From positions 1-22,524 of IMG/VR virus record IMGVR_UViG_3300036885_000433: a stretch of 22,524 bases of DNA; one strand, written 5' to 3'. The notes below the pieces were generated by a model. That model was not told the DNA's origin. It saw only the letters and a list, made by a program, of their open reading frames with translations, and made no database searches. Source of the stretch: a virus. The position numbers and the translations under genes were made by a program. How positions within the stretch are numbered: the first letter of the stretch is position 1; every line of letters begins with the position of its first letter. Positions 7,906 to 12,613 of the stretch are shown in pieces.

Positions 7906-9501
7906 TTATTGACCTCCAGAAGTAAGATTTCCAGCGGGGGCTGTACTTACTCCATAATTAACTTGCGAGCCCATGGACCACCCTTGTCTCAACATGTCTG
8001 TAGTGTAATGACCAAATACCGCATTTCCTACCTTTTTTCCGTCCAAAAATACATCGCCTTTAATCTTTCTCGCTGCTTGATATGCTTTATAAGAATCCAT
8101 CGCACTAGAAGTAGGTTTCAATGATGTAGGCGTTACACCGACATCTTTAATCGTAACTCCGGCTGCAGCCGCCAAAAGATTTCCTCCGGGGATTGGAAGA
8201 AAAGCAAGAAGTTTATGAATATGATCTAAAAAATCAAAATTATTCCTCAAAAAATCATTTAATATGGTCAGCCCTGCAGTTAACCCTTGCAATATAGGTT
8301 GAATTCTTGTTAAACCTGGGGCACCTAAAGCAGCTCCTAAATTAACAAGTTGCGTCTTAAATCCTTTCCATGTAATATCAAAACTCTTTCTTGCATCCTC
8401 GCCCATCTGCTCTAAAGTTTTATTTTGAATTCTTTCATATAAACTAACATCCTTCAAAATCAATTCTCTCTTCACAACAGCTTGCATAAATGCCTGTTGC
8501 AAAATCTGTTGATTTGGAAACATCTTAGCAATATCAATTCCTATTTTAGCGCGTATCTTTTCGTCAGAAAAATCTGTTCCGTATTTCTTCTCTACGATTG
8601 GTGATAAGTATTTCCATGTCCACTCAATAAAATTTCCTGCCAACAATTCAGGATCTTTAATGCCTTTTTGATCCCACAATCCATATTGGGACAGCGCCAT
8701 TTTCAACTGCTTATTAACTCCTCCAGCTTTCAATCCCCCAACTGCTCCGTACAATCGAGCCATTGCCTGCAGCATTGACCCAACGCCTTGACGACCGCCT
8801 CCCCCCCCCTGCGAGGTAATCCATTCTTGCATAAACGTTGGAAATTCCTGATATAGAAACTTATCACTTACTGCAAGACCACTTCCTCGCGCAAATTTCA
8901 ATGTTGCTTGATATACCTCTGGTTTCACTCTTCCTGCTGTAACAGCCATTGATTTAGATATGCCAGTTAACATCGCAGTAAAACGCGCTGGATCCATTGA
9001 CCTTCCTGTCAATTCCGCAACCTTCATTGCAGAAAGCGCCATTTCTCGTGCTTTAGAGGTATCCCCTGCAGTAGCCGATGCCGCAAATATCTGTGTCATC
9101 AACGCCATTTTAGGAAGAAATTGAGACGCTCTTTCCACACTTCCCATTGTGTATCGCAAATCTCCAAACATCTGCAAAGCTTCACTTGCCGATACAATTT
9201 GCACTTCCGCAGTAGTCTTCCATGCTGCTGCCTGAGCTTTAGCTATTTCGACATTCGTCAAGCCAGCCATATTCAACTGATTTACAGCGTGTAAATAATC
9301 AGTACCCGCGATAGTAGCTTCTTTAAATATACCGGCAGCAAGACGATAGCCTTCATACATCGCGAAGGTCTTCATCATTGTGCCTCTAATACCGGCCAAT
9401 TGCGTATTTAATGCTCCAGCTTCTCGAGAGATGCCCAATAGCTTATTAGAGACGCCATCATAAAGAATGAATCTAACAAATGTATTAAAATATTCAGCCA
9501 T
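7906..9501 (-). CDS. Tape measure protein
   Basis: The product is 531 aa, the longest gene in the tail module apart from TerL and portal, with TGAGGGATAGAG before ATG 9501. It is almost wholly helical and Ala/Gly/Met/Gln-rich (for example ASATAGDTSKAREMALSAMK), with a hydrophobic stretch (residues about 400-455: ALGAPGLTRIQPILQGLTAG, FLPIPGGNLLAAAAG) that could be the membrane-active part. The tail (GDVFLDGKKVGNAVFGHYTT) is a frequent C-terminal motif of tape measures. With the usual 0.15 nm per residue, the tail would be about 80 nm, which is short for a myovirus. No lysozyme or peptidase domain is visible. A run of nine Gs in the coding strand (8801-8809) encodes part of QGGGGGRQG. Confidence 0.88.
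   Translation of the reverse strand: MAEYFNTFVRFILYDGVSNKLLGISREAGALNTQLAGIRGTMMKTFAMYEGYRLAAGIFKEATIAGTDYLHAVNQLNMAGLTNVEIAKAQAAAWKTTAEVQIVSASEALQMFGDLRYTMGSVERASQFLPKMALMTQIFAASATAGDTSKAREMALSAMKVAELTGRSMDPARFTAMLTGISKSMAVTAGRVKPEVYQATLKFARGSGLAVSDKFLYQEFPTFMQEWITSQGGGGGRQGVGSMLQAMARLYGAVGGLKAGGVNKQLKMALSQYGLWDQKGIKDPELLAGNFIEWTWKYLSPIVEKKYGTDFSDEKIRAKIGIDIAKMFPNQQILQQAFMQAVVKRELILKDVSLYERIQNKTLEQMGEDARKSFDITWKGFKTQLVNLGAALGAPGLTRIQPILQGLTAGLTILNDFLRNNFDFLDHIHKLLAFLPIPGGNLLAAAAGVTIKDVGVTPTSLKPTSSAMDSYKAYQAARKIKGDVFLDGKKVGNAVFGHYTTDMLRQGWSMGSQVNYGVSTAPAGNLTSGGQ
8801..8809 (-). repeat. G9 homopolymer within tape measure gene
   Basis: Nine consecutive C on the plus strand (G on the coding strand), in an AT-rich gene. 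It encodes the glycine run of QGGGGGRQG. The frame is open on both sides as given. Such tracts are prone to slippage in replication, transcription or sequencing. Confidence 0.7.
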
Positions 9502-9503
9502 CT

Positions 9504-9992
9504 CTATCCCTCAGTTTCAGAAACAGATGTAATTGGTGGTTGTGTAAAAATTCTTCCGAGAATTACCATTAGAGAAATTATTTTATCATGCTCTCGAAAT
9601 AATGCTGTTTTTAATGCGGGGCGTGGAGGAATCTTACCTTTACCTTCTTCTTGAGCTTTTGCATACTCATCAGTTCCATATCCTACCTTATAACCAATGG
9701 ACACATCTTTCTTTACGATACCACAATCAACTTTATAACCTACAGAATTTCGTAACTTACCTTCTCGGAGTAGTGGCTCATTCTCTGGATATCCCTTTGC
9801 CACACGGTCTGCTTTCGTAAAATCAGCTAATGGCGGCCATTCGGGCTGCTCATGGCCTATAAGTTCTTTTGTTTTATTTTTTACTGCCTTACCAACTTCT
9901 TTTAAAAATAATTTATCTAGCAGCTCTCTTTTTACAGCGGCGCGCATTAATACTATTGGAAATTCTCTAAAATCACACTCATTCATGCCCAT
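9504..9992 (-). CDS. Tail completion / HK97 gp10-like virion morphogenesis protein
   Basis: The product is 162 aa. ATG 9992 is preceded by GAGGGTAGAATA, and the frameshifted chaperone reading frame ends 11 nt upstream. Residues about 15-60 are helical and include the GHEQPEWPPLAD section that resembles the S-x-x-x-W-x-P-L motif of phage virion morphogenesis proteins. LLREGKLRNSVGYKV (74-88) is the typical L-x-x-T/S-G-x-L-R-x-S segment. KGKIPPRPALKTALFREHD (118-136) matches the I-P-P-R-P-F/A motif shared by HK97 gp10 and P2 gpS families. Those proteins finish the tail terminus or neck. Location between the chaperones and tape measure is unusual for this class, which is normally with the neck genes. 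Confidence 0.7.
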   Translation of the reverse strand: MGMNECDFREFPIVLMRAAVKRELLDKLFLKEVGKAVKNKTKELIGHEQPEWPPLADFTKADRVAKGYPENEPLLREGKLRNSVGYKVDCGIVKKDVSIGYKVGYGTDEYAKAQEEGKGKIPPRPALKTALFREHDKIISLMVILGRIFTQPPITSVSETEG

Positions 9993-10003
9993 TATTCTAC
10001 CCT

Positions 10004-10189
10004 CTAATCGTCTTCCTTTACTTTTTCAAACCTCCATCCATTGAAATTAAATCTTTGTATTCCTTCAAACTCAACAAAAATTATTAGATACCCTGTAACC
10101 TCATCTTCGGATAAACTAAAGGCAACGTCAAACGGCACTCCATTCTTTACAAGAAATAACCGATCTCGCAATCCCTTGTCATCGGCTAT
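10004..10189 (-). CDS. Tail assembly chaperone C-terminal extension (gpT-like), made by -1 frameshift
   Basis: There are 61 codons in the -1 frame, entered from the 134-aa chaperone at A-AAA-AAA (10189-10195), ending at TAG 10004-10006; the fusion would be 195 aa. The frame has no ATG, only weak starts such as TTG. The peptide begins IADDKGLRDRLFLVKNGVPF and contains DVAFSLSEDEVTGYLIIFVE followed by aromatic QRFNFNGWRFEKV. The pattern 'V-K-x-G-V-P-x-D-V-A-F-x-L...W/F-x-I-x-F-x-E-x-E-G' is what I know from T-type extensions in such phages. By analogy with lambda gpG/gpGT, the long form is needed in small amount to bring tube and tape measure together. It exactly fills the gap between two genes. 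Confidence 0.85.
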   Translation of the reverse strand: MADDKGLRDRLFLVKNGVPFDVAFSLSEDEVTGYLIIFVEFEGIQRFNFNGWRFEKVKEDD

Positions 10190-10215
10190 TTTTTTATTTC
10201 TTGCTTTAACCTCTC
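10157..10215 (-). promoter_or_regulatory. Programmed -1 ribosomal frameshift site
   Basis: The slippery heptamer A-AAA-AAA occupies 10195-10189 in the correct phase (ATA AAA AAA in the 0 frame) and the 0-frame stop TAG follows immediately (10188-10186). An 8-bp stem starts right after it: TAGCCGAT (10188-10181) pairs with ATCGGTTA (10164-10157), one G-U pair, 16-nt loop. GAGAGG at 10215-10210 is a Shine-Dalgarno-like element 14 nt upstream, similar in principle to the stimulator of E. coli dnaX. The stem is closer to the heptamer than usual, so its base would have to be melted by the ribosome. Confidence 0.82.
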
Positions 10216-10590
10216 TTCATCAATTGCCTGATCAAAATTCTCAGTACAACACTTTTCAATAGCTATTCGACCTTCGTCATCCAATATATTGAGCCACTTA
10301 TCGATCTCCATTTCATTGTTAAGTGTTACTGGCACATTGTCCACGGATTTGACAAACATTACTTGCATAATTGAACCATAATACAATTGGTTAATTGTGC
10401 CATCTTCATTTAAAGCTTTTTTTCCTAGTGCTTTTGTAAAATTAGCTCTTTTCAACCAACTGGGGACCTTCACAACAATAATTCTTCCCAAAGAATCTGT
10501 AACCGAATATTCCTTTTGAGATCGTTTTATAATTGTTTGCGAAGGGGTTTCTACACTATCTGATGGGGTTGTCTTTAGTTTTACTGTCAT
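10186..10590 (-). CDS. Tail assembly chaperone, short form (gpG-like)
   Basis: The product is 134 aa. It starts in a TAATG junction with the tail tube gene, so its translation is coupled. N-terminus is basic and Ser/Thr-rich, followed by a beta section (EYSVTDSLGRIIVVKVPSWL) and a helical C-terminal half with hydrophobic and acidic segments (MEIDKWLNILDDEGRIAIEK). This layout, the place between tube and tape measure, and a frameshift site at the very end are the marks of lambda gpG-type chaperones. The protein is not part of the virion; it keeps the tape measure soluble and recruits tube subunits, the extended form supplying the tube-binding part. Confidence 0.85.
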   Translation of the reverse strand: MTVKLKTTPSDSVETPSQTIIKRSQKEYSVTDSLGRIIVVKVPSWLKRANFTKALGKKALNEDGTINQLYYGSIMQVMFVKSVDNVPVTLNNEMEIDKWLNILDDEGRIAIEKCCTENFDQAIDEERLKQEIKK

Positions 10591-11033
10591 TACGGAGTTA
10601 CCTCTCTACGCGATGCCAATATTCCAACAGACCAACTAATCGTATCATTTCCCTTTAATGCACCAGTCTTAAATGCTTCCAACTGAACATCTGTGTAAAT
10701 AACATCTGTCACACTGCCATCTGTTTCTCTAACAGTTACGTGATAGTACATTGGAGGAACAGGAGTTGCGTTAAAATAACAAGCTTCTAAAAGCTGCCAT
10801 AAATCGTCCATATCTCGATTTTTTCTTTCTCCAGACATAGTTCCTGTATACCCCTCCATGAATACACAATGCTGTGGATTACCATTTACCGGTAATATTG
10901 TCTTGGTAGTTGTTTTTGCATCAAAATTCAATTCAGTAGTTTCCGGCATTGTGAAACTTTGACCAGTACCCACTACTACTAAATTTATCGTACAATCCTT
11001 ACCAACGTTATACCCGCCTACACTTGTAGTCAT
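10590..11033 (-). CDS. Tail tube protein
   Basis: The product is 147 aa, the usual length for Mu/P2-like tube proteins (gpFII or Mu gpM range). The GAGGTGTGTT Shine-Dalgarno is good. Sequence starts MTTSVGGYNVGKDCTINLVV and has the alternating strands (INLVVVGTGQSFTM, YYHVTVRETDGSVTDVIYTD, ISWSVGILASRR) of the tube beta barrel. KNRDMDDLWQLLEACY (70-85) is the helix on the outside of the barrel. It follows sheath and precedes the chaperone pair, the standard order. It forms the inner tube through which DNA passes. Confidence 0.83.
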   Translation of the reverse strand: MTTSVGGYNVGKDCTINLVVVGTGQSFTMPETTELNFDAKTTTKTILPVNGNPQHCVFMEGYTGTMSGERKNRDMDDLWQLLEACYFNATPVPPMYYHVTVRETDGSVTDVIYTDVQLEAFKTGALKGNDTISWSVGILASRREVTP

Positions 11034-11059: not shown

Positions 11060-12613
11060 TTAACCAACGGTTTGAGTTGTAATCGATAATCCCGAACCAT
11101 TCAAATTGATAATAAATTTCTTCACAATATTCATATATTGCACATTTACATCGCAATATAAATAATCCGCTGCAATACTAGTTGGACTATTATTAGTTAA
11201 ATCACAAACAACTTGATATGCCTGAATCATTTTGTTTTTCACTAATTCCTGCAAAAATCCCGAAATTGTTGCCTTTACAGCTGCCCTAGTCGTATCAGAA
11301 GAAAGCATGGTTTGTGTCTGGCCAATAAAAATACCCATCGCAGAATTAAGAGTATACGCCAAATAATTAGTCATTCTGGTATAGCTATCATCACTTATCA
11401 AATTATTATTGCTCGTGTTGCAACCAATTCGAGCAGAAAAATAATTTCCACCTGGAGACGGATTCACAATTACATCAATTCCTGCTGTAGTTAATGTATC
11501 GAGATCGGCGCCAGAATATATTTTGCCATTAGTCAAGCCTTCTGTAGAAACAATACCAGAGATTGATTTATTTAAACTGCTTTGCTCAGGACTTAAATTC
11601 GCAATCCGACCTGCAATAAACGATTGCGGACTTATAAGGCGTGTTAAACCATTTGTTGTATCATTAAAATAACACCAATCTCCTAACATTATCTTAGCGT
11701 CGTAACTATTTATTCCTGCAGTATTTTTCAAACTAACTGCTGTAGCAATAGAATTATACTGCCCAGAAACATTTGTTAAAATCATATACGTTCCTTCACT
11801 TAATCCATACGCAGTTTGATTCGTCCATGTCGTACTATCATCCATGTCACAAATCATAGCCACACCACAACCGCTCCCTCTTAAGGAATACAATCCGGTT
11901 CTAGTGACGCCGTCTGTTCCCATAAAATTAGCTGAGGTTGGAGATGTGTTTCCATTCAACCCTCCTGTAAATGGCGAACTAACTAAAGCTGGAGATGACG
12001 TTGCTGTTCCAACAGTAGCACTTACAATTTGTGATTTAGCTCTTACATTTGGAATACCTGTATTTATTGCAGCTACCATATTTGTCCAAAATGCTAAACC
12101 CGTACCTCCAATATTATCGTAAACCTCAGGAACTGGAGTTGATGGCAATGCAATAGTCATTTTAAATGTTGGTGCCGCTAAAGTAGTATTCGATCCAGCG
12201 CTCATTGTGGCTACGATAGAATTTCCGGTTACACCAGTATACAAAGCAGTTAGAGTCATTCCCAATACAGGAACAACCTCACTATCCATAACACTTGCTG
12301 TGGCTGCCGCGTCAGTCGCATCAGTTATTCTTACACAACGCATGTTATTAGCGCCATTTATATACGCATTATAGACAGAAGATCCCATATCATGTTTAAT
12401 TGGTAGTATAGGACCAAATGTCTGAACATAATCAGACATATTAGAAATAGTTACAGGAGCGTTTTTAGGACCCCAAGAGGCCAAACCAACGATTCCTAAA
12501 ATATTAGTCGGCACCCCATTTATAGCTAAAACCGTAGGGGGAATTATATTGACATATAAATCAGGATGAATTAACGCATTCAGATTTGTACTACCATATT
12601 GAATCACTGGCAT
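11060..12613 (-). CDS. Contractile tail sheath protein
   Basis: The product is 517 aa, with GAGGAAAAAAAT before ATG. The opening half shows the sheath signature: LYVNIIPPTVLAINGVPTNI then GIVGLASWGPKNAPVTISNM then DYVQTFGPI (residues 19-69), equivalent to the V-x-G-x-A-x-x-G-P-x-x-x-P-x-x-I-x-S-x-x-D-Y-x-x-x-F-G motif. The middle section is a variable surface domain. The last 100 residues (TRAAVKATISGFLQELVKNK and FIINLNGSGLSI) form the conserved C-terminal domain that links sheath subunits in a mesh. Presence of sheath makes this a myovirus-type phage. Confidence 0.93.
   Translation of the reverse strand: MPVIQYGSTNLNALIHPDLYVNIIPPTVLAINGVPTNILGIVGLASWGPKNAPVTISNMSDYVQTFGPILPIKHDMGSSVYNAYINGANNMRCVRITDATDAAATASVMDSEVVPVLGMTLTALYTGVTGNSIVATMSAGSNTTLAAPTFKMTIALPSTPVPEVYDNIGGTGLAFWTNMVAAINTGIPNVRAKSQIVSATVGTATSSPALVSSPFTGGLNGNTSPTSANFMGTDGVTRTGLYSLRGSGCGVAMICDMDDSTTWTNQTAYGLSEGTYMILTNVSGQYNSIATAVSLKNTAGINSYDAKIMLGDWCYFNDTTNGLTRLISPQSFIAGRIANLSPEQSSLNKSISGIVSTEGLTNGKIYSGADLDTLTTAGIDVIVNPSPGGNYFSARIGCNTSNNNLISDDSYTRMTNYLAYTLNSAMGIFIGQTQTMLSSDTTRAAVKATISGFLQELVKNKMIQAYQVVCDLTNNSPTSIAADYLYCDVNVQYMNIVKKFIINLNGSGLSITTQTVG

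Follow-up and report, generated by a model that had tools for sequence, protein, structure and literature searches.

Sequence evidence for a programmed −1 ribosomal frameshift in the probable tail assembly chaperone gene of a phage with a contractile tail

Introduction

In phage lambda, genes G and T follow the tail tube gene and are located upstream of the tape measure gene. The products gpG and gpGT come from a small chaperone gene in which ribosomes slip by −1 close to the 3’-end, adding an extension encoded in the second frame (PMC5009743). Tail chaperone frameshifts are also described in the contractile-tailed phages P2 (E/E’) and Mu (gp41), the shift being −1, or −2 in Mu (PMC5009743, PMC2628397). 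This kind of frameshift is already established by lambda G/GT and its P2 counterpart (PMC5009743), whereas the family studied here and its extension domain were previously unlabelled in the libraries searched.

The locus is found in a viral record (IMG/VR, IMGVR_UViG_3300036885_000433); the whole stretch analysed, 22,524 nt long, is further referred to as the window. Judging from comparative sequence evidence, it almost certainly belongs to a phage with a contractile tail and carries a programmed −1 ribosomal frameshift in the gene of the tail assembly chaperone.

Structure of the junction

The anatomy of the junction was read directly from the window. It comprises the following features.

10186–10590, minus strand: 0-frame product, probable tail assembly chaperone (134 aa; G-like); ORF list, phrog_20383 (E 1.8e-12), 2ob9 (Z 4.9), position directly after the sheath and tube genes
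10189–10195, minus strand: slippery heptamer A_AAA_AAA, in phase; sequence, canonical heptamers at the homologous position in 126/143 distinct loci
10186–10188, minus strand: 0-frame stop TAG directly 3’ of the heptamer; sequence
10004–10189, minus strand: −1 frame extension (61 codons and TAG; T-like) with the motif NGVPFDVAFSLS; alignment, pN/pS 0.068 against the sister phage L003, relatives
10210–10215, minus strand: SD-like GAGAGG, a possible upstream stimulator; sequence, family-wide enrichment of SD-like 4-mers within 20 nt upstream of the heptamer
10157–10188, minus strand: hairpin of 8 bp directly after the heptamer, a possible, unproven stimulator; arms 10188–10181 and 10164–10157

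The chaperone ORF (10590..10186) ends with GAA ATA AAA AAA TAG. The X base of the A7 run is the third base of ATA, and hence the phase is correct for an X_XXY_YYZ site. The −1 frame reads ATA GCC GAT GAC ... GAC GAT TAG, with the stop at 10006–10004, and has no in-frame ATG over its 61 codons in the window; the predicted fusion is 134 + 61 = 195 aa long. All these elements had been proposed in an earlier note on this DNA, and they hold: the heptamer in phase with the stop immediately after it, and the −1 frame open without ATG down to the TAG at 10004, yielding a 61-codon extension and a 195-aa fusion. The note was also right that the gap following the chaperone stop is open in the −1 frame, but the length it gave, 190 nt, needs correction, as the downstream gene starts with the ATG at 9992 and the gap measures 193 nt.

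The window is AT-rich and A7 runs are common there, with 20 observed and 23.7 expected. The junction heptamer by itself is thus not significant; its significance comes from conservation in relatives rather than from A7 alone. A second in-phase A_AAA_AAA is located inside the chaperone gene at 10423–10417. It was rejected as an alternative slip site, given that the −1 frame there stops within a few codons and that the sister phage has AAAGAAT instead; probably it occurs by chance. The junction heptamer, unlike this one, is retained in the sister phage.

Gene neighbourhood and protein identity

The chaperone and the extension lie among tail genes:

11060–12613, minus strand: tail sheath protein; phrog_23, E 2e-42
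10590–11033, minus strand: probable tail tube protein (phrog_12993), the upstream neighbour; profile, gene order kept in relatives
9504–9992, minus strand: tail completion/neck-like protein, the next gene after the extension; phrog_222, E 2.3e-10
7906–9501, minus strand: probable tape measure protein (531 aa); position and length, no PHROG match

Relatives show the same succession of sheath, tube, chaperone and extension, with a large ORF of tape measure size after it. The chaperone and the extension are placed between the tube and tape measure genes, both named by position, with the single tail completion/neck-like gene intervening before the tape measure gene. A phrog_222 match is encoded by 41 relatives, and in those read it is found just downstream of the extension.

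All 40 aligned relatives match phrog_20383, as does the window chaperone; this family has no functional annotation. For six of the 40 there is in addition a weak match to phrog_508 (“tail assembly chaperone”), with the best E 1.6e-4. For the window chaperone itself no function-bearing sequence profile was found. Its AlphaFold model (pLDDT 83) has as the best solved-structure match the HK97 tail assembly chaperone 2ob9, with rmsd 5.0 and 10% identity over 99 aligned residues, a weak match (Foldseek E 0.086). Several of the best viral models matching it, also weakly, are annotated as tail assembly chaperones. These weak fold matches agree with the gene position in the sheath, tube, chaperone, extension order.

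The extension is modelled with pLDDT 91 and has no convincing solved relative (best Z 2.8); it is absent from PHROGs and Pfam. Pfam yielded nothing convincing for the chaperone either, and the PDB sequence search returned chance matches only. Direct tblastn of the chaperone and extension from the window and three relatives (L087, L081, L025) against annotated phages produced nothing.

Slippery sites in homologous loci

Using the extension protein as a query, we found 94 homologues in viral contigs (80 retained) and 90 in prokaryote genomes (80 retained), the latter from Burkholderiales, Acetobacteraceae and other Rhodospirillales, Rhizobiales, Planctomycetota and others. Once duplicates had been removed, 143 distinct loci, including the window, were left and examined. 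Motif conservation in the extension is partly ascertained, since the search patterns used the extension motif, whereas heptamer conservation is not.

Conservation of slipperiness throughout the family was observed directly. In 134 of the 143 loci a canonical X_XXY_YYZ heptamer is found in phase, the frame of the upstream ORF being the one from which a −1 shift leads into the extension. The heptamers are GGGAAAC (79 loci), AAAAAAC (36), AAAAAAA (8), AAAAAAG, CCCTTTG and GGGAAAT (3 each) and AAAAAAT (2). The letters vary; in 126/143 loci the heptamer starts exactly 45 nt, or 15 codons, before the same landmark in the extension. The others start 60, 90 or 96 nt before it: 90 nt in L022, L038, L058 and L060, and 60 nt in L007, L014 and L032. 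With the slippery site located farther upstream (60 or 90 nt), the stretch linking the two domains gains 5 to 15 codons.

Canonical heptamers are absent from nine loci. Three of these (L015, L051, L090) have GGGGGAA 45–46 nt before the LVKNGVPFDVA region, with TAG following. GGGGGAA has been reported at many SEA-PHAGES frameshift sites; according to the PRFect authors, about a thousand annotated frameshift sites of phages include no other “fivetwo” motif (PMC10885494). One more locus (L098) has A_AAG_AAG. In the remaining five (L092, L110, L135, L159, L161) the slippery site is absent or the frame is broken or unclear; these five include degenerate symbiont or draft assemblies. In L161 (Candidatus Burkholderia pumila), a run of A longer than in relatives precedes C about 45 nt before the motif, and the upstream frame does not fit a −1 shift, which matches the expectation for a decaying prophage or a homopolymer error.

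An error of the latter kind could be suspected in the window as well, as homopolymers are error-prone and IMG/VR-type virus records are assembled from reads; one continuous gene would then have been split at the A run. The relatives refute such an error as the cause of the frame break, and its probability is practically nil: the independent contig of the sister phage, 89–90% identical, has the same A7, and 79 relatives show the same −1 relation at GGGAAAC, a heptamer that is no homopolymer.

When the fused proteins were placed on a tree, the junction residues being masked, at least 8 switches between A-type and G-type heptamers were needed. This count is approximate, since the tree was built quickly and many of its branches are weakly supported; the supported branches force 3 to 5 changes per type.

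The strongest single test of the frameshift is provided by the X base. X occupies the free wobble position of the codon preceding the slippery pair, and its expected composition was calculated from the codons that these genes use for the same amino acids farther upstream. X agrees with the next codon in 127 of 127 cases, about 41 being expected. Before GGA-AAN (codons GCG, GTG, CAG, CTG and six others) X is G in 77/77 cases, the prediction being 34.3; before AAA-AAN (GCA, CTA, GTA, ATA, TTA) it is A in 50/50, the prediction being 6.3.

The A7 and A6C sites are A-rich, and RNA polymerase slippage at the A run (transcriptional slippage) would yield an edited mRNA. We consider it extremely unlikely, as most relatives use GGGAAAC, CCCTTTG or GGGGGAA and the constraint depends on codon phase. 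Besides, A7 is a short run for bacterial transcriptional slippage.

Alternatively, the extension might be a separate small gene with its own start (TTG 10171 in the window), translated by initiation or by reinitiation after the chaperone stop. A TTG-started ORF of 55 aa (10171..10004) is indeed present in the extension frame in the mechanical ORF list, and the extension of Komagataeibacter phage phiKX1, a distant relative found via its sheath (42% identity) and not via the chaperone, is annotated in this manner, starting from ATG. In phiKX1 the site is GCA AAA AAC TGA (A_AAA_AAC TGA) and the −1 extension is LSRHPVMQEMLLLADSGVPWDVAS, including SGVPWDVAS; the two halves, PhiKX1_580 and PhiKX1_590, are annotated as two separate hypothetical proteins. 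However, in 136 of the 143 distinct loci the extension frame has no ATG between the usual heptamer position and a point just past the core motif. In the window, TTG 10171 lacks a spaced SD, its sole SD-like bases (AAGGGA) abutting the TTG. Finally, independent initiation leaves both the fixed position of the heptamer and the complete X-base agreement unexplained, which makes a separate gene very unlikely and favours the −1 frameshift.

Selection on the −1 frame

The alignment of the extension took in 38 members. The window and the sister phage differ at 28 sites of the extension, and 23 of these are third positions in the −1 frame. In this frame 22 differences are synonymous and 6 are nonsynonymous (pN/pS 0.068), whereas pN/pS in the other two frames equals 1.06 and 1.93. 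For the chaperone in its own frame the same pair of phages yields a similar value, 0.091. Measured against the sister phage, the −1 frame of the extension is hence under strong purifying selection, and coding selection in this frame is observed directly.

Candidate stimulatory elements

The earlier note had suggested two stimulators, upstream GAGAGG and a downstream stem. The upstream suggestion is consistent with the family data: 61 of 143 loci have an SD-like 4-mer within 20 nt upstream of the heptamer position, against 22.5 expected from the same genes, with peaks at 10–13 and 17–18 nt. In the window GAGG starts 18 nt upstream, i.e. in the farther peak.

The stem exists in the window but is not a feature of the family. 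It has 8 bp with one G-U pair and begins without a spacer after the heptamer; the minimum free energy of the 50 nt after the heptamer is −10.1 kcal/mol (z −1.5). In the sister phage the hairpin is retained, with one A-U pair replaced by G-C, a compensatory change. A conserved downstream RNA structure was sought across the family and not found, the mean z being −0.32 vs −0.09 in a control segment. Rfam gave no match in the window.

Discussion

The support for the −1 frameshift is as strong as sequence evidence permits. The frameshift reading had been put forward in the earlier note, and heptamer conservation, the wobble-base test and pN/pS all support it. The two comparisons the note proposed gave the same answer: the heptamer is canonical and in phase in nearly all distinct loci, and the −1 frame is conserved by purifying selection. 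Its expectation that a standard gene caller would mis-annotate such a locus is borne out by the phiKX1 halves.

We infer the slip itself and its efficiency as follows. Most ribosomes reaching ATA-AAA-AAA-TAG would terminate at TAG, releasing the 134-aa chaperone. In a minority, the two tRNA-Lys on A_AAA_AAA would slip back by one base, and 61 more codons would be read to form the 195-aa fusion. If the two products act as gpG and gpGT do in lambda, the tape measure protein would be coated by the short form, and tail tube subunits would be recruited to it by the fusion.

Probably a −1 frameshift is used by nearly all members of the family formed by the phrog_20383 chaperone and its extension, which is spread over the phages and prophages of both Pseudomonadota and Planctomycetota. 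The site would have switched repeatedly between A-type, G-type, CCCTTTG and GGGGGAA and moved 5 to 17 codons upstream in some lineages, both protein domains remaining unchanged. The known rule of two tail chaperones made via frameshifting in long-tailed phages would thus be extended by a large, previously unlabelled family. In addition, a T-like domain (core NGVPFDVAFSLS) of a kind that gene callers miss or split off is named, and 143 distinct sites at one orthologous position form a natural series, from which one may learn what heptamers and what SD-like elements upstream of them are functional in the respective hosts.

Comparison with known systems

The HK97 chaperone (2ob9) is the best solved match of the 0-frame protein, but a weak one at 10% identity. 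The tail of HK97 is non-contractile, in contrast to the contractile-tail setting of the window phage.

The likeness to lambda gpG/gpGT consists in the small chaperone gene, the −1 slip near its 3’-end, the second-frame extension and the placement between the tube and tape measure genes. A lambda G/GT-like arrangement in a contractile-tailed phage had been suggested previously, and the sheath PHROG and the fold match fit it. No lambda record was among the tblastn matches; the likeness to lambda G/T is one of arrangement. The window phage differs from lambda in having a sheath, the A_AAA_AAA heptamer and the tail completion/neck-like gene between the extension and the tape measure gene.

P2 E/E’ and Mu gp41 are genes of the same kind and in the same position as the window chaperone. 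By profiles they belong to a different protein family, the window protein being a member of phrog_20383, and the window shift is −1 as in P2, unlike the −2 of Mu.

A further parallel is phiKX1, which belongs to a set of induced phages whose tails were seen by TEM to be contractile (PMC8566455). After the related sheath its gene order is the same as in the window, and it has a homologous frameshift site and −1 extension.
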